DNA of 64,000 bases from Beijerinckiaceae bacterium (GTDB lineage: Bacteria > Bacteroidota > Bacteroidia > Chitinophagales > Chitinophagaceae), in assembly GCA_903970475.1 (NCBI GenBank), contig CAJCIQ010000136.1, positions 1-64,000 on the forward strand, given 5' to 3'. Positions within the stretch are counted from its first letter, which is position 1, and each line of letters opens with the position of its first letter. Both the position numbers and the translations under genes were made by a program. The notes under the pieces are model-generated. The model made no database searches, was not told the DNA's origin, and was given only the letters and a program-made list of their open reading frames with translations. This document shows positions 1 through 10,604 of the stretch, piece after piece.

Positions 1-539
1 TTTACCGGCATAGCTATAATGGTTCCTATGGGGATGCCTGAATAATAGTTATTCGTGCGCCCCATGGTCACCACCCACACACCGGCCATACAAAGAAATA
101 GTAGTGTGTCACCTGGATAAAGAAAGTAAGAGGTTAACCCCGCTTGCAAGCCGTCCGTTATGGTATCAGTTCCCTGAACTTGAATGGTACATTTTCCATA
201 GGTGGAGGCCGCATATTGAAAACCTACAAACATACCCGTCGTTAACCCGGTTACGGTAGACATGGAAGAAGAGAGCGGTAACGTGTAAGCATTACCAGCG
301 GTTGAGCATTGACATAAAGTCCCTATGTAAGTTGGGTCTAACGTGGTGTTTGCTGAGAGAGACACGACCTTATTAAGCCTTGCGCCTTGCTGCAAGGCGG
401 TTAATAGGTAGTTGGTTCTATTGGCTAGGCTTTGCCCCTGGGCGTTGGAAACGCCCCCCGGTCCACCCTGCACCGCATCGGTGACAGCAATTTGATAAAT
501 AGCCGGGTCGTACTGTGTTACTTCCGTAATGTTAGCCAT
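1..539 (-). CDS. phage-tail-fibre-like protein, 3' end cut by window edge
   Basis: The minus-strand frame is open from an ATG at 539 to the window edge (179 codons, no stop). The N-terminus (about residues 15-45: VTDAVQGGPGGVSNAQGQSL followed by an RTNYLL stretch) has the look of the start of many prophage tail-fibre proteins. The last visible residues GIPIGTIIAMPV resemble the beginning of a phage tail-collar domain, where a short P-x-G-x-I-I motif is usual. It begins 2 nt after the stop of the preceding gene, so it is the distal gene of a tightly packed module. The role as a fibre or host-contact protein of a prophage or tail-derived particle is inferred from this resemblance; the receptor-binding part lies outside the window. 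Confidence 0.65.
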   Translation of the reverse strand, partial: MANITEVTQYDPAIYQIAVTDAVQGGPGGVSNAQGQSLANRTNYLLTALQQGARLNKVVSLSANTTLDPTYIGTLCQCSTAGNAYTLPLSSSMSTVTGLTTGMFVGFQYAASTYGKCTIQVQGTDTITDGLQAGLTSYFLYPGDTLLFLCMAGVWVVTMGRTNNYYSGIPIGTIIAMPV

Positions 540-541
540 GC

Positions 542-973
542 TTAAAAGTTGAGGGTCCAGGTTCCAGACAAAGAATTGGCAGAAGTTTTTTGAATACCGG
601 TATTTACTGCACGGTTGAATAGTGTATTGTCCCCTGTCAGTAGGCCCATTTCGTAAATGGTAATTCCATTATATTCATTATCTCCAAGGGACCAGTTAAC
701 CACCACTTGGCTACTATTCACCGTCACAGAATCAATAGCCTTTATATAAGATCCTGTCAGGGTTGTGTCTCCTGTGGTGGGTGCTGTGCTGTTCGTCCCA
801 AAGCCGATTTGATTAATGAAATTGTTGTTAAGGGACCCTGAGGTTAAAAGGGCCAGTTTGGAAAGGCCAGCATTAACGATAAGGTTTTTAAAGTGGTAGT
901 GCGTTTCTTCTCTTGTGACCCTGTTCAAAAGAACAAAGTCCAGGTGACCCGTCAGGGTAATTTTATCGATCAT
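542..973 (-). CDS. small phage-tail-module protein (hypothetical)
   Basis: A 143-residue protein read from an ATG at 973; a longer reading from a TTG at 1000 would overlap the upstream gene and is less likely. The start lies 1 nt after the upstream stop and the stop lies 2 nt before the fibre-like gene, as in a translationally coupled operon. The sequence is rich in Asn, Thr, Ser and Gly and looks all-beta, with a GFGTNSTAPTTGDTTL turn region near the middle, a pattern common in small tail or baseplate-associated proteins of Bacteroidota prophages. No catalytic motif is visible. Function is inferred only from composition and neighbours. Confidence 0.5.
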   Translation of the reverse strand: MIDKITLTGHLDFVLLNRVTREETHYHFKNLIVNAGLSKLALLTSGSLNNNFINQIGFGTNSTAPTTGDTTLTGSYIKAIDSVTVNSSQVVVNWSLGDNEYNGITIYEMGLLTGDNTLFNRAVNTGIQKTSANSLSGTWTLNF

Positions 974-974
974 G

Positions 975-1306
975 TTAGCTTTGCGTGATATTGATAACAA
1001 GGGAGTCTATAGGATCGGAATAAACTTTTGCGCCGTTGTAGGTGTATTTTCCATTGTAATAAAATGGGGTGTAACTCAATGAATCCGAATAGCCATTACT
1101 GCCTTCGTTAATGGTAAGGATATCCGTAAAGGCGCTACTATTGATGTTATCCGTCAGAGATAATAAGTAGGTGACACCTCCAATTAACCAGGACCGTACA
1201 TTTTTATATCGTTCAATCAGGTTTATCAGATTTTGGGACGCATCAACGTTTAGCCCTTGACCATCAACTTTGCCTTCCCGGGGTACATGTCAATGACTTT
1301 GGCCAT
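975..1306 (-). pseudogene. tail-module protein needing a -1 frameshift
   Basis: Two frames together look like one 110-residue protein. Frame A starts at the ATG at 1306 (MAKVIDMYPGKAK) and stops after 18 residues at 1250. Frame C, offset by -1 and with no usable start codon, runs from about 1268 to the TAA at 975 (starts VDGQGLNVDASQNL). Joining them at GCAAAG (1273-1268) gives a smooth protein; the A-AAG tetramer there is a known slippery sequence. It could be a frameshift mutation, a sequencing error or programmed slippage. The product would be a small structural protein of the tail-like module, but no family is recognised. Confidence 0.45.
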
Positions 1307-1319
1307 AACGCTCGCCTAT

Positions 1320-1465
1320 TTACTTTTCAAATATCCGCTCCCAAAAACCTCTTTTATCAGTATGGAGAAGATTGTGGAAGGAATTTTTAAAAGTATCCAC
1401 CTCGTTAATACTCCTTCCTACCTTTATTTCTCCAGATCACTTCCCCATAAGGCCACTTCCTCCAT
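1320..1465 (-). pseudogene. possible 48-aa gene split by a -1 frameshift
   Basis: An ATG at 1465, 17 nt after the preceding stop, opens a 13-residue frame (MEEVALWGSDLEK) that ends at a TAA at 1424. In the -1 frame translation would continue from about 1427 (IKVGRSINEVDTFKNSF...) to a TAA at 1320, giving 48 residues in total. An alternative is a separate 26-residue peptide from a GTG at 1400, which has an AGGAAGGAG ribosome-binding site 10 nt upstream. Function is unknown. The call rests on frame continuity and position between two genes of one operon, so it is weak. Confidence 0.25.
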
Positions 1466-1482
1466 TTTAAACGCTAGTAGGG

Positions 1483-1710
1483 TCACAGGCCACCAGCCAG
1501 CAACAGCACGATACCCGCCATAATCATCAGCGTTGCCACCAGTCTTGCCAGTCCTTCCACCACGCGGGTTATGATGGCCGCCCCATAGGACGGAAAATAT
1601 TCCAGGCCCGTCATAGAGCGGCGCAAAAACTTACGCTTAGCAATCCTATAGCGGATGGCAAGCCCTAAAGCCATCAGGGCCGGACCAGTAAAAATGGACA
1701 GTAGGTGCAT
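1483..1710 (-). CDS. small two-helix membrane protein of the tail-like module
   Basis: A 75-residue protein starting at the ATG at 1710. It has a hydrophobic N-terminal helix (about residues 2-20), a basic loop (YRIAKRKFLRRSMTGLEYF), and a second hydrophobic helix at the C-terminus (VATLMIMAGIVLLLAGGL). It resembles short Bacteroidota proteins that databases often label, probably wrongly, as molybdenum ABC transporter permease (from memory). A longer reading upstream to 1914 has no membrane or domain logic and would cover the promoter box at 1764-1803, so the short form was chosen. It is the first gene of the minus-strand module. A holin-like or envelope role is possible but unproven. Confidence 0.5.
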   Translation of the reverse strand: MHLLSIFTGPALMALGLAIRYRIAKRKFLRRSMTGLEYFPSYGAAIITRVVEGLARLVATLMIMAGIVLLLAGGL

Positions 1711-1742
1711 GGGATGAATTTGCTGGTAATAAAAGTGGTTAC

Positions 1743-1758
1743 CGACCACTGGTGGTCG
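1743..1758. promoter_or_regulatory. 16-bp palindrome in the leader of the tail-like module
   Basis: CGACCAC-TG-GTGGTCG is a perfect 7-bp inverted repeat with a 2-bp centre. It lies between the shared promoter box and the ATG at 1710, just downstream of the -7-like element. The position suits an operator or a leader hairpin; nothing else identifies the factor. Confidence 0.35.
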
Positions 1759-1763
1759 TTTCA

Positions 1764-1803
1764 CAAATATGGCGTCCGGCCAGGGGGATCTGTCAGAATG
1801 CAG
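1764..1803 (-). promoter_or_regulatory. shared-box promoter, copy 1 (tail-like module)
   Basis: Read on the minus strand: CTGCATTCTGACAG at 1803-1790, exactly 18 nt, then CATATTTG at 1771-1764, which matches the Bacteroidota -7 element TAnnTTTG except for the first base. The same box with the same 18-nt spacing stands before the helix-turn-helix genes at 2766-3137 and 7999-8334. The box occupies the -33 region, so it may be an activator site or an unusual -33 element. Confidence 0.55.
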
Positions 1804-1927
1804 AACCGGGGGGAAAGAAGGTTTTGTGAAAAATATTTGAGCAAACCAAAGTAGCCCTGATTGCCTTTGACAGGCCACCAGGCAGCTGGTCTCGATTAAT
1901 AAACTTATATCCAAACATTTATCAACT

Positions 1928-2257
1928 ATGCATGCCTTTTTAATCGTCCCTCACGAGCACAGAATTATAAAAATCAGATTCCCAGAAGCTAAGGGTATTC
2001 CTGTAGGAGATGTCAAGCACATGTTGAGATATTCGGACTTTGTTGAGGAGCCAGCATTTGCAAGTGGAGATATCTGGTGTTTGCCGGAAGGATACAAGGA
2101 AAGGTATTGGTTGACCTCTTTTCAGGTCAGATGGGGAGTGGCCATTCCTACTTTTCGGGGAAGGGCCTTACTAGTAGGACCGTATAAAGAAGGCAGTTAT
2201 ACCAGCCCCCAGACAACAGAGGTTTTTTTAGTAAAAACGATTTATTATCCGCTGTAA
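1928..2257 (+). CDS. hypothetical protein, 109 aa
   Basis: An open frame from an ATG at 1928 to a TAA at 2257, transcribed away from the tail-like module. The product is soluble, mixed alpha/beta, rich in aromatic residues (WCLPEGYKERYWLTSFQVRW in the middle), with no signal peptide and no recognised motif. I do not recognise the family. Its divergent position next to the boxed promoter and the absence of any competing frame support a real accessory gene, but nothing points to a function. Confidence 0.45.
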   Translation: MHAFLIVPHEHRIIKIRFPEAKGIPVGDVKHMLRYSDFVEEPAFASGDIWCLPEGYKERYWLTSFQVRWGVAIPTFRGRALLVGPYKEGSYTSPQTTEVFLVKTIYYPL

Positions 2258-2339
2258 TTATTGCATCACCAGCGCTACAGCTAGCCTGCATAACCATTGG
2301 AAGTTCTACCAGGGTGAGTATCGCTGCTTAGAGGATTTT

Positions 2340-2639
2340 CTACGCAAGTCCATATTTTCTAAGTACACGCTTGATCTGCCCCAGACCCCTGGGTCCCATT
2401 CCATTGATTCTTTTAAGCACCTCTGCGTCCGATCCCGCCAGATCTTTCATTTTGATGATGCGGCGAGATTTCAAGAGGTGAACAACCCTTGTGTCCACTT
2501 CCCTTAAGACCCGGATATCGGAGAGGTCCATGTTTAAAATTTCCTCTTTTTCGATTTTGTCAAACTTTAGTTTCAGGAACTGATAGAGGTGGTGTAGTTC
2601 ACCTTCGTCAATTAAGTTGAGGTCAATGGAAATATGCAT
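2340..2639 (-). CDS. stand-alone RNA polymerase alpha-CTD-like protein
   Basis: A 99-residue protein. Residues about 35-99 follow the pattern of the C-terminal domain of RNA polymerase alpha (RpoA): a hydrophobic Leu-Arg-Glu-Val-Asp-Thr-Arg helix, a paired helix ending KMKDLAG, then ADAEVLKR-like helix and the helix-hairpin-helix turn NGMGPRGLGQIKRVL that in RpoA contacts UP-element DNA. The first 35 residues (acidic, DEGELHHLYQFLKLKFDKIEKEE) replace the alpha N-terminal domain, so it cannot assemble into polymerase as RpoA does. It may bind DNA or a polymerase partner and act as a regulator; that role is inference. It stands alone between mobile-element genes. Confidence 0.6.
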   Translation of the reverse strand: MHISIDLNLIDEGELHHLYQFLKLKFDKIEKEEILNMDLSDIRVLREVDTRVVHLLKSRRIIKMKDLAGSDAEVLKRINGMGPRGLGQIKRVLRKYGLA

Positions 2640-2765
2640 AGCCTGGTTGATTTATTGGTTTTGAAAGTATTGTTCTATATGAGTACCCATGGCTCCAAGC
2701 ATATTACTTTTTCGCACTGCCCCTATCCTTGAGGGTTTGGAGACCATTAACAGCCACGCCCCTGG

Positions 2766-3137
2766 TCACCTTTTAAGCGGAATGAACTGTCCCGAGCGGT
2801 TTCGCCCAAGGCTTTTGCGCCTTTCTATCTCCCGCTCAATATCTGCCGGATCATAATAAAAAAGACCGCCCACCTTGGAAAAGGGTATGGTCCCATTGTC
2901 CCTCAGGGTCTGAAGCGTGCCGTGGGAGAGGCCCAAGAGCTTTTTGACTTCCCAGGACTTCAGCCATTTTTTTTCAGCCGGCTTTACCAGATCTGCCAGG
3001 ACTAATTTGAGTTCCGCCAGTAGTTCCACTTTAAGTTCTGTTTTCAGCTGCGCTTTAAAGTCCTGGAGATCGTCCAGCGTGATAAGCCGGTTACGCGTCC
3101 GTTGGCCAGATTCGTCAGGCCTGTTGGTAATGACCAT
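2766..3137 (-). CDS. helix-turn-helix DNA-binding protein (excisionase/MerR-like fold)
   Basis: A 123-residue protein. Residues about 20-55 form an amphipathic, probably coiled, segment (LDDLQDFKAQLKTELKVELL). Residues about 57-105 hold a winged helix-turn-helix of the excisionase/HTH_17 type (WEVKKLLGLSHGTLQTLRDN, then GTIPFSKVGG and a YYDPADIEREIE helix). Such proteins are frequent in Bacteroidota conjugative and integrative elements, where they act as excisionases or local regulators. It is a paralogue of the gene at 7999-8334, and both have the same promoter box. Start chosen at the ATG at 3137, 37 nt downstream of that box. Confidence 0.75.
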   Translation of the reverse strand: MVITNRPDESGQRTRNRLITLDDLQDFKAQLKTELKVELLAELKLVLADLVKPAEKKWLKSWEVKKLLGLSHGTLQTLRDNGTIPFSKVGGLFYYDPADIEREIERRKSLGRNRSGQFIPLKR

Positions 3138-3148
3138 AGATTTTTGCC

Positions 3149-3188
3149 GGAAGGTATACGCGAGAGAAAGGCACCTGTCAGAGTGCAG
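3149..3188 (-). promoter_or_regulatory. shared-box promoter, copy 2 (HTH gene)
   Basis: Minus strand: CTGCACTCTGACAG at 3188-3175, 18 nt, then TACCTTCC at 3156-3149 (a poor TAnnTTTG). The bases just after the box (GTGC) also agree with copy 3. The ATG of the HTH gene follows at 3137. Confidence 0.5.
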
Positions 3189-3323
3189 GAAAAAGGGGAA
3201 GCCATCAAAGTGTTAAAACGGTAGACCGATCGGTGCGACCAAAGCGCGAGCATTGGCAAGCCTCGGGCAGCCTTTAGATGAAGCCCCGCCTATCCAGCCT
3301 TAAGCTAAATGACTTTCCGCTCC

Positions 3324-4139
3324 TCAAGCCTCAAGCATGGAGGCGTCCGGATTTGAAAAATTTCGCTGACCAGTAGTCCCGCTTTCTAAAACGTAACGTC
3401 TTTTAAACATCACAATTAAATAGCCTGCACTTACTGCTGCTGCCAAATGTTTTAATGTATGACCACTCACAAAACCCGTCCAATGGAAGATTTGAACATC
3501 GAGCGCCTCCAAGCCTTTGGCAACTGCATACCAAAGGACCACCCAAACAAGTGCCGTCACCCCTTGCAAGTTATCCCACCGCCCAAATAAAATCAGGATC
3601 AGCGGAATGCCCACCATTGGAAAGAATTGTACCCACCAATATAATCTGAGATCACCCACCCCGAGCAATTCGGTGTGATACCACCAAAGAACGCTTGCAA
3701 TCCCCAGCCCAACTAAAGGACCCAAAAGCCATGACGAAGCGCGTTGATCCACCCACTGGCCAATCGAAACCACCAGGGCAGACATAAAAACCACGGTCAT
3801 AGGCATTCTGTCGAAGATCAATCGGTCATTATTGGGTGCCCAGTGATAATAGGCAGACCCAAATCCCGTTAATAAAATCCCACTAAACAACACCGCAAAG
3901 GAAACCCAGACGCTTTTGGGTAGTCCTCTACTTTGCAACTCAATAAAACCCCAGGCTCCTATAGCCAAAAAGGGGAGGTTACTCATCACATTTCCGAAAT
4001 TTTGAATACCCAACCAATGCCGGCTATCTGCAAACTGGTGGAAAGCGGGGTCCTGACCATTTCTGGGAATCATTGCCGCTATTAGTCCCGAAACCAATAC
4101 CACGGCCACCAAAATGGATATTTTCGTGATTTTACGCAT
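3324..4139 (-). CDS. ceramidase-like (CREST superfamily) membrane hydrolase
   Basis: A 271-residue, very hydrophobic protein with about seven predicted membrane helices. Conserved polar residues sit inside membrane context as in alkaline ceramidases and the CREST superfamily: GSAYYHWAPNND followed by RLIFDRMPM (His and Asp near residues 98-112) and a C-terminal GHTLKHLAAA pair of His residues (about 230). In that superfamily Ser, His and Asp residues bind zinc and hydrolyse amide bonds of ceramide-type lipids. A role in sphingolipid turnover is plausible since Bacteroidota make sphingolipids, but substrate is not shown by the sequence. Divergent from the Crp-like gene; the two share a 183-bp promoter region. 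Confidence 0.75.
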   Translation of the reverse strand: MRKITKISILVAVVLVSGLIAAMIPRNGQDPAFHQFADSRHWLGIQNFGNVMSNLPFLAIGAWGFIELQSRGLPKSVWVSFAVLFSGILLTGFGSAYYHWAPNNDRLIFDRMPMTVVFMSALVVSIGQWVDQRASSWLLGPLVGLGIASVLWWYHTELLGVGDLRLYWWVQFFPMVGIPLILILFGRWDNLQGVTALVWVVLWYAVAKGLEALDVQIFHWTGFVSGHTLKHLAAAVSAGYLIVMFKRRYVLESGTTGQRNFSNPDASMLEA

Positions 4140-4322
4140 AAGAAGTTTCCTAGTGTGATAAAAACACCCCAGACAAGGCCAGGTGATTCAAGAGGTATTA
4201 TTATATGTTATCCATAAGATGTTATATTTGTTTGTACCTTATTGGCTATCTCATGGCTAACTAAAACACCTCCTCTTATCCGGAACAACCTAATGATTCT
4301 TTGGTAAGAAAAATTTCTCGAA

Positions 4323-4916
4323 ATGAACAACTTTCTCGATTTTTTGGATAGCATCCACCCAATAAGCGACGATTGCAAAACTTATCTCTCGTCCGTTCTC
4401 AGAACCAAGGTGATCAAAAAAAGAGAGTACATTCTACGGGAGGGAGAAATTTGTAACAAAATCGGATTCATCGAGGCTGGCTGCCTTAAATCCTATTCAT
4501 CCAAGTCTGAGCGGGATAGTAATATCTGGTTTTGGTTCTCAGGTGAAGTATTTACTTCTACTTCAAGTTTTTTTGAACAATCACCTTCGAGAAACTACAT
4601 CCAGGCCGTTACCCAAACCCAATTTTACTACCTTACCCATGATGCATTAGAACACGTCTACAAAACTTATCCCGAAACCAACATCGTCGCCCGGATACTG
4701 CTTCAAAAGTACTACGCCATGGAGGTCAGTCGCATGGAATTAATGAAAGGATTACCCGCGCTTCAGCGATACAAATTCCTTATAGATAAACATCCGGAAG
4801 TCCTGGAAAATCTAAATAATACAGAAATAGCTTCCTATCTGGACATATCCAGGTTTCGCTTAAGCCAAATCCGCCACGAATTAACGAAAAGCCATCTATG
4901 TCCCAATATTGAGTAA
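4323..4916 (+). CDS. Crp/Fnr-family transcriptional regulator
   Basis: A 197-residue protein with an N-terminal cyclic-nucleotide-binding-like beta-roll (residues about 10-125; IKKREYILREGEICNKIGFI is the typical first strand and turn) and a short C-terminal helix-turn-helix (NNTEIASYLDISRFRLSQIR, about 165-185). The cNMP phosphate-binding cassette is not conserved, as in most Bacteroidota members, so cAMP response is unlikely. A TATATTTG -7 element at 4223-4230 may serve its promoter, but no clear TTG lies at the right distance. It may control the divergent ceramidase-like gene; that is inference from position. Confidence 0.8.
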   Translation: MNNFLDFLDSIHPISDDCKTYLSSVLRTKVIKKREYILREGEICNKIGFIEAGCLKSYSSKSERDSNIWFWFSGEVFTSTSSFFEQSPSRNYIQAVTQTQFYYLTHDALEHVYKTYPETNIVARILLQKYYAMEVSRMELMKGLPALQRYKFLIDKHPEVLENLNNTEIASYLDISRFRLSQIRHELTKSHLCPNIE

Positions 4917-5009
4917 TTAATTCATCATAAAAGTTGCAATAGCTAAACAAATCGAAAAATAAACGGCACTAATTTTCAGGCAAATTGATTGAAACCTCAA
5001 AATTATTTT

Positions 5010-6515
5010 ATGAAACTAGCTAGCCGTATTTCTAAGATCAAGAGACTTTTCCTTCCATCATTTATTGCGTCCCTGTTCCTTTTTCTTTTACTCATTTCCT
5101 GTCACAAGACAACTTTGACTACAAACAAACAGGATAGCGATCTCATCTCAGCGGATCGAACCTACTTTGAGGCGTTCGTGCTTCCACAGCACAATGCGGA
5201 CACCTCAGTTGATTTACAGCACTTTCGAATGGCCTTACATAAATGGCCTGATTGGTCCAAGGCCTATGTGGACAACTTGGGGGCATTTGGACCAACCGTT
5301 ACCGTTCCTGTCCGCTTTAAAGAACAACTACATCTTTCGGGTGCGTACAAATCCATGTCGATCAATGAAATGACCTACCTACTCATTTATCAGGATGCTG
5401 CGGGCCAAAAACATTGTGAAGTGGTTACCAAGACGCCCGACCTAGCCTACGCGCAAAACACGTCGCCCTCCAAGACCTTCTCCGGAAATGTGACGGTAGA
5501 AGATTGGGCCGGCCATTTTCTCAAAGGATATAACTTTGTAAACGGGGCTATTGAACCAAGTGGTTTTTCAGTCGTGAAAACCGAAACAAAAAATGGGAAC
5601 ATGGCTCAAAAATCCAATGTCCAGGCCAACACTTCCATATCAACCGACGATTGTCCCACCGTCGATTGGTATGCATGCCTCAAAGATGAAAGTGGCGAAC
5701 TCTACGACTGTGATTACATATCTTCCACTATTACCTGCGAGATCAGCTGGATAAATACCACCGGTAGCGCCGAAGGCGTACTTTATAACTATTCCGGTTC
5801 CGGTTCTGGTGGAGGTGGCGGCACATCGGCCGGTCCGTCTTATACCGATGCAGCAAACCAATATATTCAGATCGGCCCACAGATACCTATTGCAGATATA
5901 GCTGGGTATCTGTCCTGCTTTGGCAGTGGTGGACAATCTTATTCAGTAACCTTGTATGTCGATCAACCCGTAAACAATTCATCGGCCCCCTATAGCGTTG
6001 GCGGTAGTGGGTCAATTGGCACCTCTGGCGGCAGTGGTAGTGGCAGTTCCTCCATTGATGGGGCTTTCGATGTAGGCCATACCTTTTTAGCGTTGACCGA
6101 GGTACTGGCCAGTGGAGCTGTTATTACACGATATATGGGCTTCTATCCCAAAACGAGCGCAAACCCCTCCTCTCCTACAGCGCCAGGCGTGATAGGAGAT
6201 GACGAAAATCATAACGCCAATATTTCGCTCACCATAAATGTTTTGTCAAGCCAATTTAACGCAATCATGTATTACATGTCTCAGGCTAGTGTGCAAACAT
6301 ATAGTTTGAACCAGAATAATTGTACCACCTACGCTTTAGCTGCCTTAGGAAATGGCGGCATTTCAATGGACCCGCCAAGAGGAAGCTGGCCCATGGGGGG
6401 TGGCGATGATCCAGGGGATCTTGGACAGTATCTCAGGACGATGCCGCTCGGATCTAATATGACACTCAATACAAATCAGACACAGGCTGGCTATAATATC
6501 GGAACTTGTAACTAA
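5010..6515 (+). CDS. exported lipoprotein with permuted papain-like (NlpC/P60-type) C-terminal domain
   Basis: Start taken at the ATG at 5010 (501 residues); a TTG at 4989 would only lengthen the cytoplasmic head. A basic start, a hydrophobic stretch and LLLISC form a lipoprotein signal peptide. Residues about 40-200 are a module seen at the N-terminus of many Bacteroidota surface lipoproteins (ends FSGNVTVEDWAGHFLKGY). A Gly/Ser-rich linker (about 255-350) leads to a C-terminal domain with VGHTFLAL and, about 90 residues later, NNCTTYALAALGN. A His before a Cys in this order is that of circularly permuted NlpC/P60 and LRAT-like enzymes. A peptidase, amidase or acyltransferase role, perhaps as a toxin, is inference. 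Confidence 0.55.
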   Translation: MKLASRISKIKRLFLPSFIASLFLFLLLISCHKTTLTTNKQDSDLISADRTYFEAFVLPQHNADTSVDLQHFRMALHKWPDWSKAYVDNLGAFGPTVTVPVRFKEQLHLSGAYKSMSINEMTYLLIYQDAAGQKHCEVVTKTPDLAYAQNTSPSKTFSGNVTVEDWAGHFLKGYNFVNGAIEPSGFSVVKTETKNGNMAQKSNVQANTSISTDDCPTVDWYACLKDESGELYDCDYISSTITCEISWINTTGSAEGVLYNYSGSGSGGGGGTSAGPSYTDAANQYIQIGPQIPIADIAGYLSCFGSGGQSYSVTLYVDQPVNNSSAPYSVGGSGSIGTSGGSGSGSSSIDGAFDVGHTFLALTEVLASGAVITRYMGFYPKTSANPSSPTAPGVIGDDENHNANISLTINVLSSQFNAIMYYMSQASVQTYSLNQNNCTTYALAALGNGGISMDPPRGSWPMGGGDDPGDLGQYLRTMPLGSNMTLNTNQTQAGYNIGTCN

Positions 6516-6541
6516 TAAGGCAATAAAACACCCCAGTGCAA

Positions 6542-6922
6542 ATGACTATTAAGAGAAATCGCTGGCATGCAGCACGTATCGCAGGACTTTGCTTCGGTGC
6601 CCTAGTGGTGCTACTCAATTTGTTTCCCATTTTCTCGGCCTTTGATGTTTACGAGTACTCCAATTCAGATGGGACGTTTCAATTTAGGGAATATCCCATG
6701 AAGGGTACCGATTTGAAAATGATGGAAGAGCAATGGAAATCATTTAGGGACACTACACATCAGGATACGGTTCTGTACCGGACATTTGCCATCCATCCTC
6801 TCTACTTTTGGATGTGGGGCAGTTATATTTTCAATAAACGATATAGATACCCCTACTTAAATCCTGAAGTCCTCCAAGCGAACGAAAAAAAAATACCCAT
6901 CCACCTTTATAAACCTCATTAG
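6542..6922 (+). CDS. membrane-anchored hypothetical protein, 126 aa
   Basis: Start placed at the ATG at 6542; a GTG two codons earlier is possible. A basic N-terminus is followed by one strong membrane helix (about residues 14-34, GLCFGALVVLLNLFPIFSAF) and a roughly 90-residue hydrophilic domain with many aromatic residues (YRTFAIHPLYFWMWGSYIF). I do not recognise the family. It lies 26 nt after the papain-like lipoprotein gene and 11 nt before the next small exported protein, so the three are probably co-transcribed. An accessory or immunity role is possible from position only. Confidence 0.5.
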   Translation: MTIKRNRWHAARIAGLCFGALVVLLNLFPIFSAFDVYEYSNSDGTFQFREYPMKGTDLKMMEEQWKSFRDTTHQDTVLYRTFAIHPLYFWMWGSYIFNKRYRYPYLNPEVLQANEKKIPIHLYKPH

Positions 6923-6933
6923 TCCCTCTTGCC

Positions 6934-7350
6934 ATGCGCATATGCTTAATTTTAATTCTTTTCGGCTTAAAGACTGCCTCCGGTCAGTCCTTGAAACTAA
7001 GTGAAGGCACCCATTGGATGATGTATGACCCCCATTTAAAAATGTATGCGTTTTCTATGGATAGTCTAAGCCACTACAAGCATATGGCTTTAGACGATGA
7101 TACACTCTCCAGGTATCTATCGAGCGTGCAAGTTTGGCCAAAAGATAAATGGTCCGTTTGGCAAGGCTACTACTTTTGCAGCGCAGATTTCCCAGATAGT
7201 GGAACCACGGTCATCATTTTCAGTAGTCATGGAGGCTTCTTTTATGACATTAAACACAAACAATACTACTGCGTAACAGATGACCTCCGGGATAGCTTCA
7301 CGGCTTACTTTATTAATAAGCTCAAAGCGTATTACGGAAAAGGAAATTAA
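6934..7350 (+). CDS. small exported hypothetical protein, 138 aa
   Basis: Begins with a Sec signal peptide (MRICLILILFGLKTASG, cleavage near residue 17). The mature part of about 120 residues is rich in Tyr, Trp and Phe with an IIFSSHGGFFYDIKHKQYYC segment. No family recognised. Third gene of a likely operon with the papain-like lipoprotein; a perfect GC-rich hairpin follows its stop at 7363-7389. A periplasmic small protein encoded behind a lytic-type lipoprotein would suit an immunity protein, but the sequence does not prove it. Confidence 0.5.
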   Translation: MRICLILILFGLKTASGQSLKLSEGTHWMMYDPHLKMYAFSMDSLSHYKHMALDDDTLSRYLSSVQVWPKDKWSVWQGYYFCSADFPDSGTTVIIFSSHGGFFYDIKHKQYYCVTDDLRDSFTAYFINKLKAYYGKGN

Positions 7351-7362
7351 TTCGTTTTCTTG

Positions 7363-7389
7363 GGGGCGGCGGCAGTCTCCAGCCGCCCC
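7363..7389. terminator. GC-rich hairpin between convergent genes
   Basis: GGGGCGGC and GCCGCCCC form a perfect 8-bp stem with an 11-nt loop, between the end of the plus-strand operon (7350) and the end of the minus-strand FecR fragment (7396). No long U-run is present on either side. Confidence 0.5.
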
Positions 7390-7395
7390 TATATC

Positions 7396-7692
7396 TTACA
7401 TTCTTCGGGCTGGGCAAAACAGCTCAGTGCTTGAGGTCCTCACGCCGGTTATAGCATCAAAGGCCGCAAAAACCTTTTGATCCAAACTATCCCAGGATGG
7501 TAAAGTGCCCTTTTCCCCGTGGCTGGCCGTGCTATCAGGACCAGCCAGTTTGTCCATCAAAGCTGCAATTTCCGGACAGCCGTGTATATATGCTTCCAAT
7601 TGGTCATTCTCTTTTTTAGAGATCGTGCCTAGCATGCGCTTTAATAGCCACTGTATTTGGTCAGGGAACCCGTCCATAGCCATATCATCCAT
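7396..7692 (-). pseudogene. orphan FecR-type anti-sigma N-terminal fragment
   Basis: A 98-residue frame from an ATG at 7692. Residues about 10-50 (QWLLKRMLGTISKKENDQLE, then AYIHGCPEIAALMDKL) match the N-terminal sigma-binding region of FecR-family anti-sigma factors in Chitinophagaceae, where a short helix pair with Glu-x-x-x-Leu and a W/Y-I-x-x-x-P-E pattern is usual. Full-length FecR proteins have about 320-400 residues with a membrane helix and a periplasmic FecR domain; both are missing here. No sigma factor or TonB receptor lies beside it. It looks like a relic, though a free anti-sigma domain could still be active. Confidence 0.4.
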
Positions 7693-7998
7693 ATAACCAT
7701 TTTTTAAGTATTGAAATGAAATACCTATGTATATAAACCGGATAAATCGCCAACATCTATAAAGAAAAGGAACATTTATTTTTCGGATAGGGACATTGGT
7801 CAGCCGCTCTCGTCCGGGTGGCAAAGGTTCCGGCACATCCCTGAAGGTGCGTGTCCGGCTCAGATATGCGTTTGTCCATAAAAAAAAGGAGCCAAGGCGC
7901 TTGAACCTTGCACTCCTATTCATATTTACTTTACGCCTTATCTCCCTATAGAAATCACCGATGCCGTGCCGAACTTGAAAAAGTGCATGATAGAATGA
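7693..7998. other. 306-bp stretch without a recognisable gene
   Basis: An open minus-strand frame upstream of the FecR fragment continues to 7923 but its composition (many Arg, Pro and no domain logic) argues against coding. No strong hairpin or promoter was found. Confidence 0.4.
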
Positions 7999-8334
7999 TC
8001 AAACAGCCTTCTTCAATGGCTTCATTTTAATGAGGCGACCTTTACTAAATACTCCGGGGGAACGGTTTTCTGTTACAAACTCCATGACTTCTGAGCGTAG
8101 GAAATAAACCCTACCCCCTTGTTTATGGTGGGGAAGGCCCTGGTTCATCCATGCATGGAGGGTGACGGTAGAAATACTTAAAATGCCAGCCACCTGCTTC
8201 CGGCTAAGCAATGGTTCTGGGCCGAAACCCTCCTCTTGGCTGATCTGAATGGTCTGCTCGTTAAAAAATGCCTCTAAGACTTCCAGCACCCACTTTTTAA
8301 TGTCTGCTTCTGTTGGAATATGAAAGGTTTCCAT
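7999..8334 (-). CDS. helix-turn-helix DNA-binding protein, paralogue of 2766-3137
   Basis: A 111-residue protein. The start at 8334 is favoured over an upstream frame to 8394 because GGAGGT lies 8 nt before it and the promoter box would otherwise be inside the gene. N-terminal helical segment (about residues 5-35), then an excisionase/HTH_17-type winged helix: LLSRKQVAGILSISTVTLHA, MNQGLPHHKQGGRVYFLRSE. The tail is basic (KGRLIKMKPLKK). Likely a mobile-element regulator or recombination directionality factor; it lies 0.6 kb from the integrase end but on the other side of the tRNA. Carries the shared-box promoter in its best form. Confidence 0.75.
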   Translation of the reverse strand: METFHIPTEADIKKWVLEVLEAFFNEQTIQISQEEGFGPEPLLSRKQVAGILSISTVTLHAWMNQGLPHHKQGGRVYFLRSEVMEFVTENRSPGVFSKGRLIKMKPLKKAV

Positions 8335-8351
8335 GAAAATTACCTCCACCT

Positions 8352-8391
8352 CAAATGTAGCCTTCAGAAGATGCCACCTGTCAGTATGCAG
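8352..8391 (-). promoter_or_regulatory. shared-box promoter, copy 3 (second HTH gene)
   Basis: Minus strand: CTGCATACTGACAG at 8391-8378, 18 nt, then a perfect TACATTTG (TAnnTTTG) at 8359-8352. The start codon follows 17 nt later at 8334. This copy anchors the interpretation of the box as a -33-region element. Confidence 0.65.
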
Positions 8392-8502
8392 CATGGGACG
8401 GGTATTAAACCTTAAAAAAAAATGACAGACCAGAGATCGCCCCTTCTGAATAGTTGGACGGTTGATTTTGCAATGCCAGGTTCACCTCGATAACAGCAAA
8501 TT

Positions 8503-8525
8503 GTTTACAAAAATTTGCACAAGAC
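8503..8525. repeat. 23-bp recombinase-type repeat, left copy
   Basis: GTTTACAAAAATTTGCACAAGAC matches the copy at 10375-10397 upstream of the integrase in 17 of 23 positions. Each copy is itself a near-tandem of TTGCACAAAA-like units, a layout often seen at tyrosine-recombinase binding sites. It lies in the 378-bp stretch 8335-8712, which holds no gene besides this and the HTH promoter. Confidence 0.4.
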
Positions 8526-8712
8526 GGCAGGTTCGTGCTTCCTGGGTTAAGTCGGATATTTTGTTAAAATAAATTTCATATTTGACCTACCTACCATTAT
8601 TTTTGCAACTCAAATATTTCACATTTAATACATAAGGTATACTAATAAAGACTTAGTCAGGTCGCAATTTGAAGGTCTAATAAGATAGTAAATATTTGAA
8701 AATCAAATAATT

Positions 8713-8787
8713 GGGAGTTTAGCTCAGCTGGTTCAGAGCAATTGCCTTACAAGCAATGGGTCGGCGGTTCGAACCCGTCAACTCCCA
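8713..8787 (+). tRNA. tRNA-Val (anticodon TAC)
   Basis: A full cloverleaf can be folded by eye: acceptor GGGAGTT / AACTCCC with discriminator A at 8787, D-arm GCTC...GAGC, anticodon stem ATTGC / GCAAT around loop CTTACAA (anticodon TAC), and T-arm GGCGG-TTCGAAC-CCGTC. The CCA end is not encoded. It is followed at once by a strong intrinsic terminator. Its anticodon-loop sequence CCTTACAAGCA recurs in a truncated tRNA copy at 10523-10533 on the other side of an integrase gene, so it is the likely attachment site of an integrative element. Confidence 0.95.
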
Positions 8788-8792
8788 CAAAA

Positions 8793-8817
8793 GCCCTCGA
8801 TTGATCGAGGGCTTTTT
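8793..8817 (+). terminator. intrinsic terminator of tRNA-Val
   Basis: GCCCTCGA-TTGA-TCGAGGGC (perfect 8-bp stem, 8793-8812) followed by TTTTT. Confidence 0.85.
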
Positions 8818-8822
8818 ATTGC

Positions 8823-8859
8823 CCCTTTGAGCATCTTTTTAAAGCAGATGCTCAAAGGG
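8823..8859. repeat. 13-bp perfect inverted repeat beside tRNA-Val
   Basis: CCCTTTGAGCATC (8823-8835) and its exact reverse complement (8847-8859) flank an 11-nt AT-rich centre. No U-run follows in either direction, so it is not an obvious terminator. Position between tRNA and integrase suggests a recombination-related or regulatory palindrome. Confidence 0.45.
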
Positions 8860-8904
8860 TGCTATTATATAAGATTTGTAAGGAGGTTGACCATGGAATA
8901 GCCG

Positions 8905-8931
8905 TAAAAAAAGCCGCCGATTTCTCGGCGG
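8905..8931 (-). terminator. intrinsic terminator of the integrase gene
   Basis: On the minus strand CCGCCGA-GAAA-TCGGCGG (8931-8914) is followed by a run of T residues (8912-8906), 25 nt beyond the integrase stop. Confidence 0.8.
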
Positions 8932-8955
8932 TCGGTAAAAAATGAGGCAACGGCA

Positions 8956-10335
8956 TCAGGCAGCCTGATCGTCCTTTTTCTTTCTTTTAAAGGCATCGAG
9001 TTGAGCGGCATTTTCTTTTTTACGTTCGGATGGCAAGCCGCCTACATATCTTCTGGTAGTCCTGGGGTCCGAATGTCCGAGTTCGTCACCGATATCGTTG
9101 AGATCAGCCCCACCCAGACGCCGAACGGTTGCATAACTGTGTCTGGCGACTTGGCAACCGGCTTTCTTTTCGATGCCCAAGGCATCCAGGACGCGTTGCA
9201 TCCATTTATTAATGAATTGCACGAACTGCTCCCCCACCTTATATTGTCTAAGAGGGGTCATCCCGTGCTCAAAAATGGGGAAGATGTAATTCTCAGGACT
9301 TTTATCCTTATTGCCATATTCCGCAATGGTCTGCAGTAGGTCTTCATTTAAGAAAACGGAGATCTTGGGAGGGTCCTGGGCCGTTTCTTCCGTCTTGGCT
9401 CTTTCAAATTCAAAAAAATCTCCGGTGATATGCTTATACTGTAGTAAGGCGATGTCTTTAGGGTTCAAGCCTTGCCCAAAATACATAAAAAGCCAAAATG
9501 CTTTAGCTTTCTTCATTGATGGTTCCTTGGGGTCGCAAGCGTAATAATAGATTTGCTCAATCTCATCTAGGGTGAACGCTTTTTTGAGATTACTGGAAGC
9601 AGGTATGCCAAACTGACCTTTGCCGAAGGGATAGCAATTCTCCTTTTTTATTCTCTTAAGTCGAATGGCTTCGTTAAAGACGGCCCGCAGCTTTCGGGTG
9701 TAAATTCCAACGGTTGTCTTTCCGCAAGTTGTTTTCTTATCGTCCGTATTGTATTTCAGCCAATCGCTATAATACTGTACATACTCGGCTGTAATGGTCT
9801 TGAATTTGACATTACCGCCAAACTTTAATAGCGAAGAATAGGCGGTTCGATATCCAACAGCTGTTTTAATCGAACCAGATGTCCCCTTAGATATTTTCTT
9901 TTCAATAATCAATTTAAAGATTTCCCCGATCGAGCCAGGCTCAGGGTTTTCCAGTAGAACGGGAAAATTCTTATAATATGGCCCGAAATCAAACTTCTTG
10001 AGTGCTGCGGGAAGGGGCTGAAACTTAATGCGTGCTTGTTCAAAACCTGGATGGTCTTTAATAAAGTCTCTTTCAAAAATGTCGAAAGAGAACGGGTCCA
10101 TGTTCTTGATGAATGCCAGGGCTGTGTCCTCAATTTCTTTGAGTTTATCCCGGACGTCTTGTAAGTTATCGCGCAAGTTTTTGGCCTTGAGCTTGTCGTT
10201 GTCTTTTATCGACAGACCAAAGATCGTGGGGTATAATTTGGATTTCCCTGCATATATCCGGAGCTTGTAGGGGTAGTCCTCCGTCTTTTTCCGGAGGGTT
10301 CGGGTGTCAAAATAAATGTCTACTTTCACTGACAT
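8956..10335 (-). CDS. tyrosine recombinase / site-specific integrase
   Basis: A 459-residue protein with an N-terminal arm-binding-like beta region (about 1-90), a SAM-like core-binding domain (about 150-240, ending ETC YFGK-type basic segment) and a C-terminal catalytic domain (about 255-440). Box II ARHSYAT, LGHSDPRTT and the nucleophile Tyr in RRYV are present, as is a Lys in the ERAKTEE beta-hairpin. The first catalytic Arg is replaced: where GLR is usual this protein has GLN (FGQGLNPKDIALLQ), a deviation known among Bacteroidota integrases. It sits between tRNA-Val and a tRNA-Val fragment and is oriented toward the tRNA. Likely drives integration or excision of the element. Confidence 0.9.
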   Translation of the reverse strand: MSVKVDIYFDTRTLRKKTEDYPYKLRIYAGKSKLYPTIFGLSIKDNDKLKAKNLRDNLQDVRDKLKEIEDTALAFIKNMDPFSFDIFERDFIKDHPGFEQARIKFQPLPAALKKFDFGPYYKNFPVLLENPEPGSIGEIFKLIIEKKISKGTSGSIKTAVGYRTAYSSLLKFGGNVKFKTITAEYVQYYSDWLKYNTDDKKTTCGKTTVGIYTRKLRAVFNEAIRLKRIKKENCYPFGKGQFGIPASSNLKKAFTLDEIEQIYYYACDPKEPSMKKAKAFWLFMYFGQGLNPKDIALLQYKHITGDFFEFERAKTEETAQDPPKISVFLNEDLLQTIAEYGNKDKSPENYIFPIFEHGMTPLRQYKVGEQFVQFINKWMQRVLDALGIEKKAGCQVARHSYATVRRLGGADLNDIGDELGHSDPRTTRRYVGGLPSERKKENAAQLDAFKRKKKDDQAA

Positions 10336-10374
10336 AAATGCTACTTTTACTTGGGTAATTAATCTTTCCGGTTA

Positions 10375-10397
10375 GTTGCACAAAATCTGCACAAAAC
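10375..10397. repeat. 23-bp recombinase-type repeat, right copy
   Basis: GTTGCACAAAATCTGCACAAAAC, 39 nt upstream of the integrase start, is a tandem of two TGCACAAAA units and matches the left copy at 8503-8525 in 17 of 23 positions. Probably a binding site for the recombinase or its regulator. Confidence 0.45.
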
Positions 10398-10471
10398 CTT
10401 CGCTTAAAGGGGTTTTAGGCACCAAAAAGCGAAAATAGTAAAAGAGCGCTTAACTATTGATAACGAAACAG

Positions 10472-10500
10472 TTAAGTTAAAATAGGTTCGCTTAAGTTAA
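10472..10500. repeat. two TTAAGTTAA direct repeats with 20-bp period
   Basis: TTAAGTTAA at 10472-10480 and again at 10492-10500, each followed by a purine-rich TAG sequence. The 20-bp period puts both on the same DNA face. They lie between the integrase promoter and the tRNA fragment, where arm-type recombinase sites or iteron-like sites would be expected. Confidence 0.4.
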
Positions 10501-10521
10501 GGTAGAATAGGTATCTAATCG

Positions 10522-10565
10522 CCCTTACAAGCAGAGGGTCCTTGGTTCGATCCCGAGTGCTCCCA
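10522..10565 (+). pseudogene. 3' half of a tRNA-Val (attachment-site remnant)
   Basis: Sequence from the anticodon loop onward is tRNA-like: CCCTTACAAGCAGAGGG, T-arm CTTGG-TTCGATC-CCGAG, acceptor 3' strand TGCTCCC and discriminator A. The 5' half (D-arm and 5' acceptor strand) is absent. It shares CCTTACAAGCA with the intact tRNA-Val at 8745-8755, the likely crossover core. Its anticodon and acceptor strands would not pair well with the 5' half of the neighbouring tRNA, so it may come from a different tRNA-Val gene or an older integration. Confidence 0.7.
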
Positions 10566-10570
10566 CAGAA

Positions 10571-10604
10571 AAAGCCTCAACGAAAGTTGGGGCTTTGTTT
10601 TTTT
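10571..10604 (+). terminator. intrinsic terminator after the tRNA fragment
   Basis: AAAGCCTCAAC-GAAA-GTTGGGGCTTT (11-bp stem with one G-U pair) followed by GTTTTTTT. Its survival shows that the fragment is the genuine 3' end of a former tRNA unit. Confidence 0.85.

Follow-up and report, generated by a model that had tools for sequence, protein, structure and literature searches.

A displaced tRNA-Val half beside a tyrosine recombinase: probable right end of a larger tRNA-integrated element in a Chitinophagaceae genome

Tycheposons, elements that combine a tyrosine recombinase with a tRNA gene, carry a complete tRNA. The locus described here shares this combination with them but, set against the account of Tycheposons in PMC10872708, differs in having a classical 3' fragment and a crossover at the anticodon loop. 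Closer still are the tRNA-integrated genomic islands as defined in the Islander account (PMC4383910), which the locus resembles in its tyrosine integrase and in the displacement, at the anticodon loop, of a 3' piece of tDNA; by the features given in that account it differs in that the regenerated tRNA of the other end is absent from the assembly and that the element probably encloses a complete extra tRNA of the target isoacceptor. The integrase itself is reminiscent of the IntCTnDOT subgroup, of which CTnDOT and NBU1 are examples and for which PMC8138268 describes a weakly conserved first Arg. For tRNA-targeting integrases, the anticodon stem is described in general terms as forming the arms of the core site (PMC8371274). 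In the literature searched, no paper was recognised that describes a complete tRNA carried as cargo by an element targeting that very isoacceptor. Taken as a whole, the locus is probably a tRNA-Val-integrated element of a known kind, larger than the 1.9 kb over which its most visible parts extend.

The stretch of DNA analysed, hereafter the window, comprises the first 64,000 nucleotides of the 66,860-bp contig C136, which belongs to a draft genome of 5.35 Mb in 263 contigs; its gene content suggests a Chitinophagaceae-type member of the Bacteroidota. The sole tRNA called by ARAGORN in the window is a complete tRNA-Val(TAC) on the forward strand at 8713–8788, of the GGGAGTT/AACTCCC acceptor type and with the anticodon stem ATTGC/GCAAT. 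It is followed on the reverse strand by the open frame of a tyrosine recombinase of 459 aa (8956–10335; Pfam Phage_int_SAM_5, 3.6e-14, and Phage_integrase, 3e-8), and beyond this lies the 3' half of a second tRNA-Val on the forward strand (10523–10567). Terminator-like hairpins with T runs can be seen by eye on the forward strand behind both the complete gene (8790–8817) and the fragment (10570–10604). The initial annotation had described just this arrangement, with the two tRNA pieces and their terminators flanking the recombinase, and it is borne out by ARAGORN, Pfam and reading by eye; that the interval holds almost only the integrase also agrees with our reading, in which the recombinase is the sole long gene noticed between the two tRNA pieces. 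The anticodon-loop sequence CCTTACAAGCA is common to the fragment and to the intact tRNA-Val (8745–8755 in the latter). When the whole 5.35-Mb draft genome was searched with the pattern CCTTACAAGCANNGGGTC, allowing up to two mismatches, matches were found at the two tRNA-Val sites only (the reversed pattern, as a control, gave one match), confirming the sharing that had been noted. The fragment does not pair with the adjacent 5' half, again as annotated: its acceptor strand reads TGCTCCC against GGGAGTT, and the 3' halves of the two genes differ at 10 of 45 bases.

A comparison with a congener gives the fragment a different partner. In G001, the one congener genome compared, a tRNA-Val(TAC) lies at C2:518.5 kb, the single match there to the tRNA-Val pattern, and its 3' half and the fragment agree in all but 1 of 45 bases. 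The right flank tells the same story, as the window from 14.2 to 64 kb is largely collinear with C2:504–429 kb of the congener, and the tRNA-Val there has the side and strand to be expected from this. Exceptions to this collinearity are the window's 16.4–18.2 kb, which corresponds to C2:364–365 kb, and a sulfatase-like gene at 12.7–14.2 kb, which corresponds to C2:750 kb. Judged by this comparison of sequences, the fragment stems from the host's native tRNA-Val(TAC), whose 3' half was displaced here, and is thus the attR (core plus host side) of an element at the native tRNA-Val locus. The possibility that the 11-base core is shared by chance was rejected, because the fragment spans 45 tRNA bases with a single difference from the congener. 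At the corresponding locus, G001 has one intact tRNA-Val, and that genome contains no integrase relative at E<=1e-30; it can be read as the empty site, with the nearest 10 kb of flank not collinear. The 3.6 kb adjoining the fragment are unmatched at the congener locus, where about 14 kb of other genes are found. A relative with both the tRNA and the fragment but no integrase, the arrangement named by the initial annotation as speaking against its idea, was not seen in this one congener with its single intact tRNA-Val. The marks of a tRNA-integrated genomic island that can be found here are a displaced, correctly oriented 3' fragment of the target tRNA at one end, a tyrosine integrase gene within the element, and a relative's intact tRNA-Val (subject to the break in collinearity just given) in place of an occupied site. 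Of the two ways in which the mismatch between tRNA and fragment had been explained, integration at another tRNA-Val gene comes close as far as the fragment is concerned; a deletion of cargo is not needed to account for it, and persists as a rival.

The layout of the locus can be placed within a larger group of integrases. Relatives at E<=1e-30 are present in 104 of 394 family genomes, the window's own genome counted. Among 39 of these relatives, chosen as the best-scoring loci and not as a random sample, 35 have a tRNA 3' half beside the start of the integrase gene and oriented as in the window, 27 of which were found by pattern and 7 by eye, with L143 in addition. The loci L142, L149, L036 and L041 lack such a fragment, and in L142, L149 and L036 the integrase frames are short; at L045 none was visible by eye, and L046–L052 were left out of this examination. 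The tRNA targets, as read from the anticodon loops, include Val, Asn, Arg, Met, Lys and probably Leu, the Leu calls being unsure and resting on a long variable arm. In a quick tree labelled by these isotypes, the integrase of the window falls together with those of G059 and G146, both of tRNA-Arg elements, so its target has probably changed. As far as sequence can tell, this is a tRNA-targeting group with a fixed layout, and the comparison supports what the initial annotation had seen, namely such an integrase next to a tRNA-Val 3' half that was displaced by a crossover in the anticodon loop. All 40 aligned integrases (the window's and the 39 relatives) have Asn at the position usual for the first catalytic Arg, while the second Arg is kept in 39 of 40, the His of LGH in 40 of 40 and the Tyr in 39 of 40, these being the residues that we take to be catalytic. 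A SAM-like core-binding domain, a catalytic domain with its Tyr and a weak first arginine are features of the IntCTnDOT subgroup as PMC8138268 presents it; the likeness is one of features, the Phage_int_SAM_5 domain and the Asn in all 40 integrases among them, in an alignment of these integrases only. No conjugation genes came to notice in the window. Searches for a close phage or plasmid relative gave matches to 24 phage and 39 plasmid records, all below 60% identity and none spanning 80% of the query in one place, and a scan of viral contigs with the integrase found no relative.

Elements in which both ends are visible can serve as a guide to what a complete element of this group looks like. 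Three such elements, in G016 (9.4 kb), G059 (9.6 kb) and G146 (30.4 kb), have a complete tRNA at the left end and a fragment beside the integrase at the right; the left tRNA is followed by arm repeats in two of them (G016, G146) and by an arm-like stretch in the third. The left tRNA and the fragment agree in their tRNA part in G016, G207, G055, G033 (where the two lie on different contigs) and G059. In G146, the left-end tRNA-Arg(ACG) (L258 9636–9710) and the displaced fragment (L260 from 65) differ at 8 of 44 bases, so a mismatch between tRNA and fragment is not by itself proof against the tRNA at 8713 as an attL. In G207 (L241 and L243), fragment and tRNA-Val are about 104 kb apart and a second integrase lies beside the tRNA, probably as a result of stacked elements. 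None of 30 relatives resembles the window in having a complete tRNA less than about 1.5 kb from the integrase. In addition, the window's own genome has on contig C157 (L020, about 1421–1575) a tRNA-Arg(ACG) that is intact in its 5' part and decayed in its 3' part, followed directly by an intact tRNA-Arg of another acceptor type; the decayed copy is possibly the scar of an older integration.

Arm-type repeats provide a second landmark. Tandem repeats of this type lie 147–153 bp from the core in five of nine elements scanned by pattern (those of G016, G059, G107, G146 and G207, with no match near the core in G345, G055, G033 and G357). In the window, tandem repeats of TGCACAAAATCTGCACAA on the forward strand at 10377–10394, about 148 bp from the core, are probable arm-binding sites of the integrase. 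This pair was missed by the relatives' arm pattern; it resembles TTGCACAGAATTTGCACA of G059, which lies 147 bp from the core there, and the surrounding 10367–10501 is 73% identical to the G059 element over 136 bp. The 167 bp behind the complete tRNA (8789–8955) match neither arm pattern. A second arm-like tandem, TTTACAAAAATTTGCACAA, occurs by pattern match on the forward strand at 8504–8522, between an excisionase-like gene and the complete tRNA, and is, with the pair at 10377, the only window match to a pattern drawn post hoc from these two sites. Neither end of an element would have such a tandem at this distance and on this side. Taken as arms for the tRNA at 8713 it was rejected: about 243 bp separate it from that core, against 147–153 bp at other right ends, and its side is wrong for a left end.

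How far the element extends to the left can be approached through its neighbouring genes. Downstream of the integrase and on the same strand lies a gene for an HTH_17, excisionase-like DNA-binding protein (7999–8394, reverse strand; Pfam HTH_17 1e-9; phrog_66 'excisionase and transcriptional regulator' 4.1e-8). Of 19 longer integrase regions, 5 (G029, G345, G207, G146 and G357) contain a homologue of this protein (43–49%), coded on the integrase's strand and 0.4–2.4 kb downstream of it, and every homologue found adjoined an integrase relative; the other 14 regions, that of the sister G059 included, have none at E 1e-3. Since these homologues accompany related integrases in this way, the tRNA at 8713 probably sits between two genes of one module. 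The probable left part of the element, at 1–7998, includes a phage-family protein (542–1000; PHROGs phrog_5417, 5e-25), an HTH_17 protein (2766–3137) and a ceramidase/Crp cluster (3324–7350). The protein at 542–1000 also has a weaker match to a tail-fibre family, and hypothetical proteins 43–47% identical to it occur in four phage records, of Bordetella and Pseudomonas phages. Scans of viral contigs with the excisionase-like and the phage-family proteins found no relative, and PADLOC gave weak mad1 matches only, to both HTH proteins (8.5e-6 and 5.3e-5). The left flank of the congener's tRNA-Val (FecR 40%, SusC 78% and SusD 75% identical) was found in the window's genome on another contig, C61, which begins about 2.6 kb short of the expected position of the tRNA. 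This would place the left end of the element in the assembly gap beside C61, a step that relies on the congener's gene order, and the element would probably reach at least to the start of the contig and measure at least about 10.5 kb. The native tRNA-Val 5' half (up to three mismatches) was not found in the assembly, in which mtaB has 28% paralogues only; with the tRNA at 8713 not cognate to the fragment, neither is a regenerated cognate tRNA at the other end. The initial annotation had taken 8713–10604 for a whole, very small element or its remains, a view that loses its footing once the fragment is matched to the native tRNA-Val with its largely collinear right flank. The tRNA at 8713, in turn, is probably not the partner end, given that it lies between the integrase and the excisionase-like gene while the congener's left flank is on another contig.

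On balance we therefore favour the view that the window holds the right end of a larger tRNA-Val island, with the tRNA-Val at 8713 as cargo and the left end beyond the start of the contig. The main competitor is a minimal or deleted element, in which the tRNA at 8713 would be the attL after all and the cargo and the arm sites behind the tRNA would have been lost, the mismatch having come from an element that bridged tandem, unlike tRNA-Val genes with its left end in the first and its right end in the second. Precedents for parts of this can be found: two tRNA-Val copies lie about 85–260 bp apart in several family genomes, the window's own genome has unlike neighbouring tRNA-Arg copies of which the first is decayed, and in G146 the tRNA at one end of the element does not match the fragment at the other. 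An intact attL would, however, be expected to carry a cognate 3' half with arm sites behind it, and the tRNA at 8713 has neither, its 3' half differing as given above and no arm-type repeat following 8788; the former mark can fail at a true left end, as G146 shows. It also counts against a deleted element that the excisionase-like gene, a companion of related integrases, lies to the left of the tRNA, that the congener has one tRNA-Val of the pattern searched, and that the congener's left flank is elsewhere in the window's own genome. For these reasons, we regard a deleted element as unlikely, though worth keeping in mind.

Alternatively, 1–8788 could be host chromosome with a second resident tRNA-Val, brought beside the remnant of the native tRNA-Val by an inversion or a deletion. 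This idea draws on the left flank itself, as the window's 3.3–7.35 kb is collinear with a gene cluster at C1:2.849–2.852 Mb of the congener, and could on that account be rearranged chromosome; no relative of these integrases was found in 100 kb around that cluster. A TIR-domain NTPase, possibly a defence gene, was seen beside the congener's ceramidase/Crp cluster (L129 1703–3217), and structural-looking genes near the cluster that had been taken for phage-like had no match in a PHROGs search. The rearrangement is made less attractive by the HTH_17 and excisionase-like genes and the phage-family protein in the left flank, by the company that the excisionase-like gene keeps with related integrases, and by the scarcity of tRNA genes at the proposed source: in the congener, ARAGORN called no tRNA within the 20 kb that enclose the cluster, and in the 80 kb around these it called two tRNA-Ser and no other tRNA. 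We hold it to be improbable, a little more so than a deletion. An artificial join would be a further way to bring unlike pieces together, and a fragmented draft (263 contigs, 91.7% complete) with a contig that starts at window base 1 offers some opportunity for a chimera. Yet the integrase is followed by the excisionase-like gene on one strand, an order known in relatives, and only the short core is common to the two tRNA pieces; an assembly error seems very improbable.

If the right end of a larger island is what the window contains, the complete tRNA-Val inside it calls for an origin of its own. Set against tRNA-Val genes of several other genera of the family it shows 4 differences, which make up two base pairs of the anticodon stem; against the congener's it shows 14. 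One exact pattern, which would miss other T-loop sequences, detects the variant anticodon stem in 1 of 394 genomes of the family, that of the window itself, and in 2 of 395 of the class. The second of these, G601, belongs to another family, and its tRNA-Val has the identical stem and differs from the window tRNA at 4 bases; the stem variant is thus not private to this locus. The neighbours of this tRNA-Val, from translations only, read as folC and a cobalamin adenosyltransferase, and no integrase of the window's kind lies within 19 kb of it (40 kb fetched). A viral source was set aside: 52 viral contigs share the TTGC...GCAA pattern of the anticodon stem, with a best alignment score of 50 against 68 for some other genera of the family. 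No special selection is needed to explain the sequence if its origin is foreign, and the intact tRNA-Val is probably a foreign-type cargo carried inside the element.

With the anticodon stem serving as the arms of the core site, a protective effect of the stem variant can also be considered. The variant may shield the tRNA from the integrase, a putative effect that would fit an element bringing a replacement for the isoacceptor it attacks: with anticodon-stem arms that the integrase does not recognise, the host would keep a tRNA-Val(TAC) and the integrase gene would not be excised between like cores. With 5 of the 21 pairs in the anticodon stem, the two changed pairs would both land there by chance with a probability of about 0.05, which is weak evidence, and the reading loses weight because G601 has the stem variant without such an integrase nearby. 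We consider this scenario doubtful, and of lower probability than either a deletion or a rearrangement.

The course of events that would produce the right end of a larger island can be outlined as follows, where the left end and the cargo status and function of the tRNA are what we infer. An integrative element would have entered the native tRNA-Val(TAC) at the anticodon loop, its integrase joining the attP core to the tRNA gene and leaving the host's 3' half at 10523–10567, beside the arm sites and the integrase gene, as attR. From there the element would run to the left, past the excisionase-like gene at 7999–8394, to at least the start of the contig. At the attL, presumably in the assembly gap by C61, the native 5' half would be completed by a 3' half supplied by the element. 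The tRNA-Val at 8713 would have come as cargo from a lineage with a GGGAGTT-type tRNA-Val and would probably give the host an extra or reserve valine tRNA; it may also be a poor substrate for the integrase, since its anticodon stem, which supplies the arms of the core site, departs from the native target at two base pairs. For the search for such islands, the locus means that the rule by which a tRNA and a tRNA fragment mark the two ends of an island can mislead when a second, unlike tRNA of the same isoacceptor lies near the integrase. If the tRNA is cargo, the locus would provide a concrete, testable case of an element that insures its host against the loss of the very tRNA it targets.
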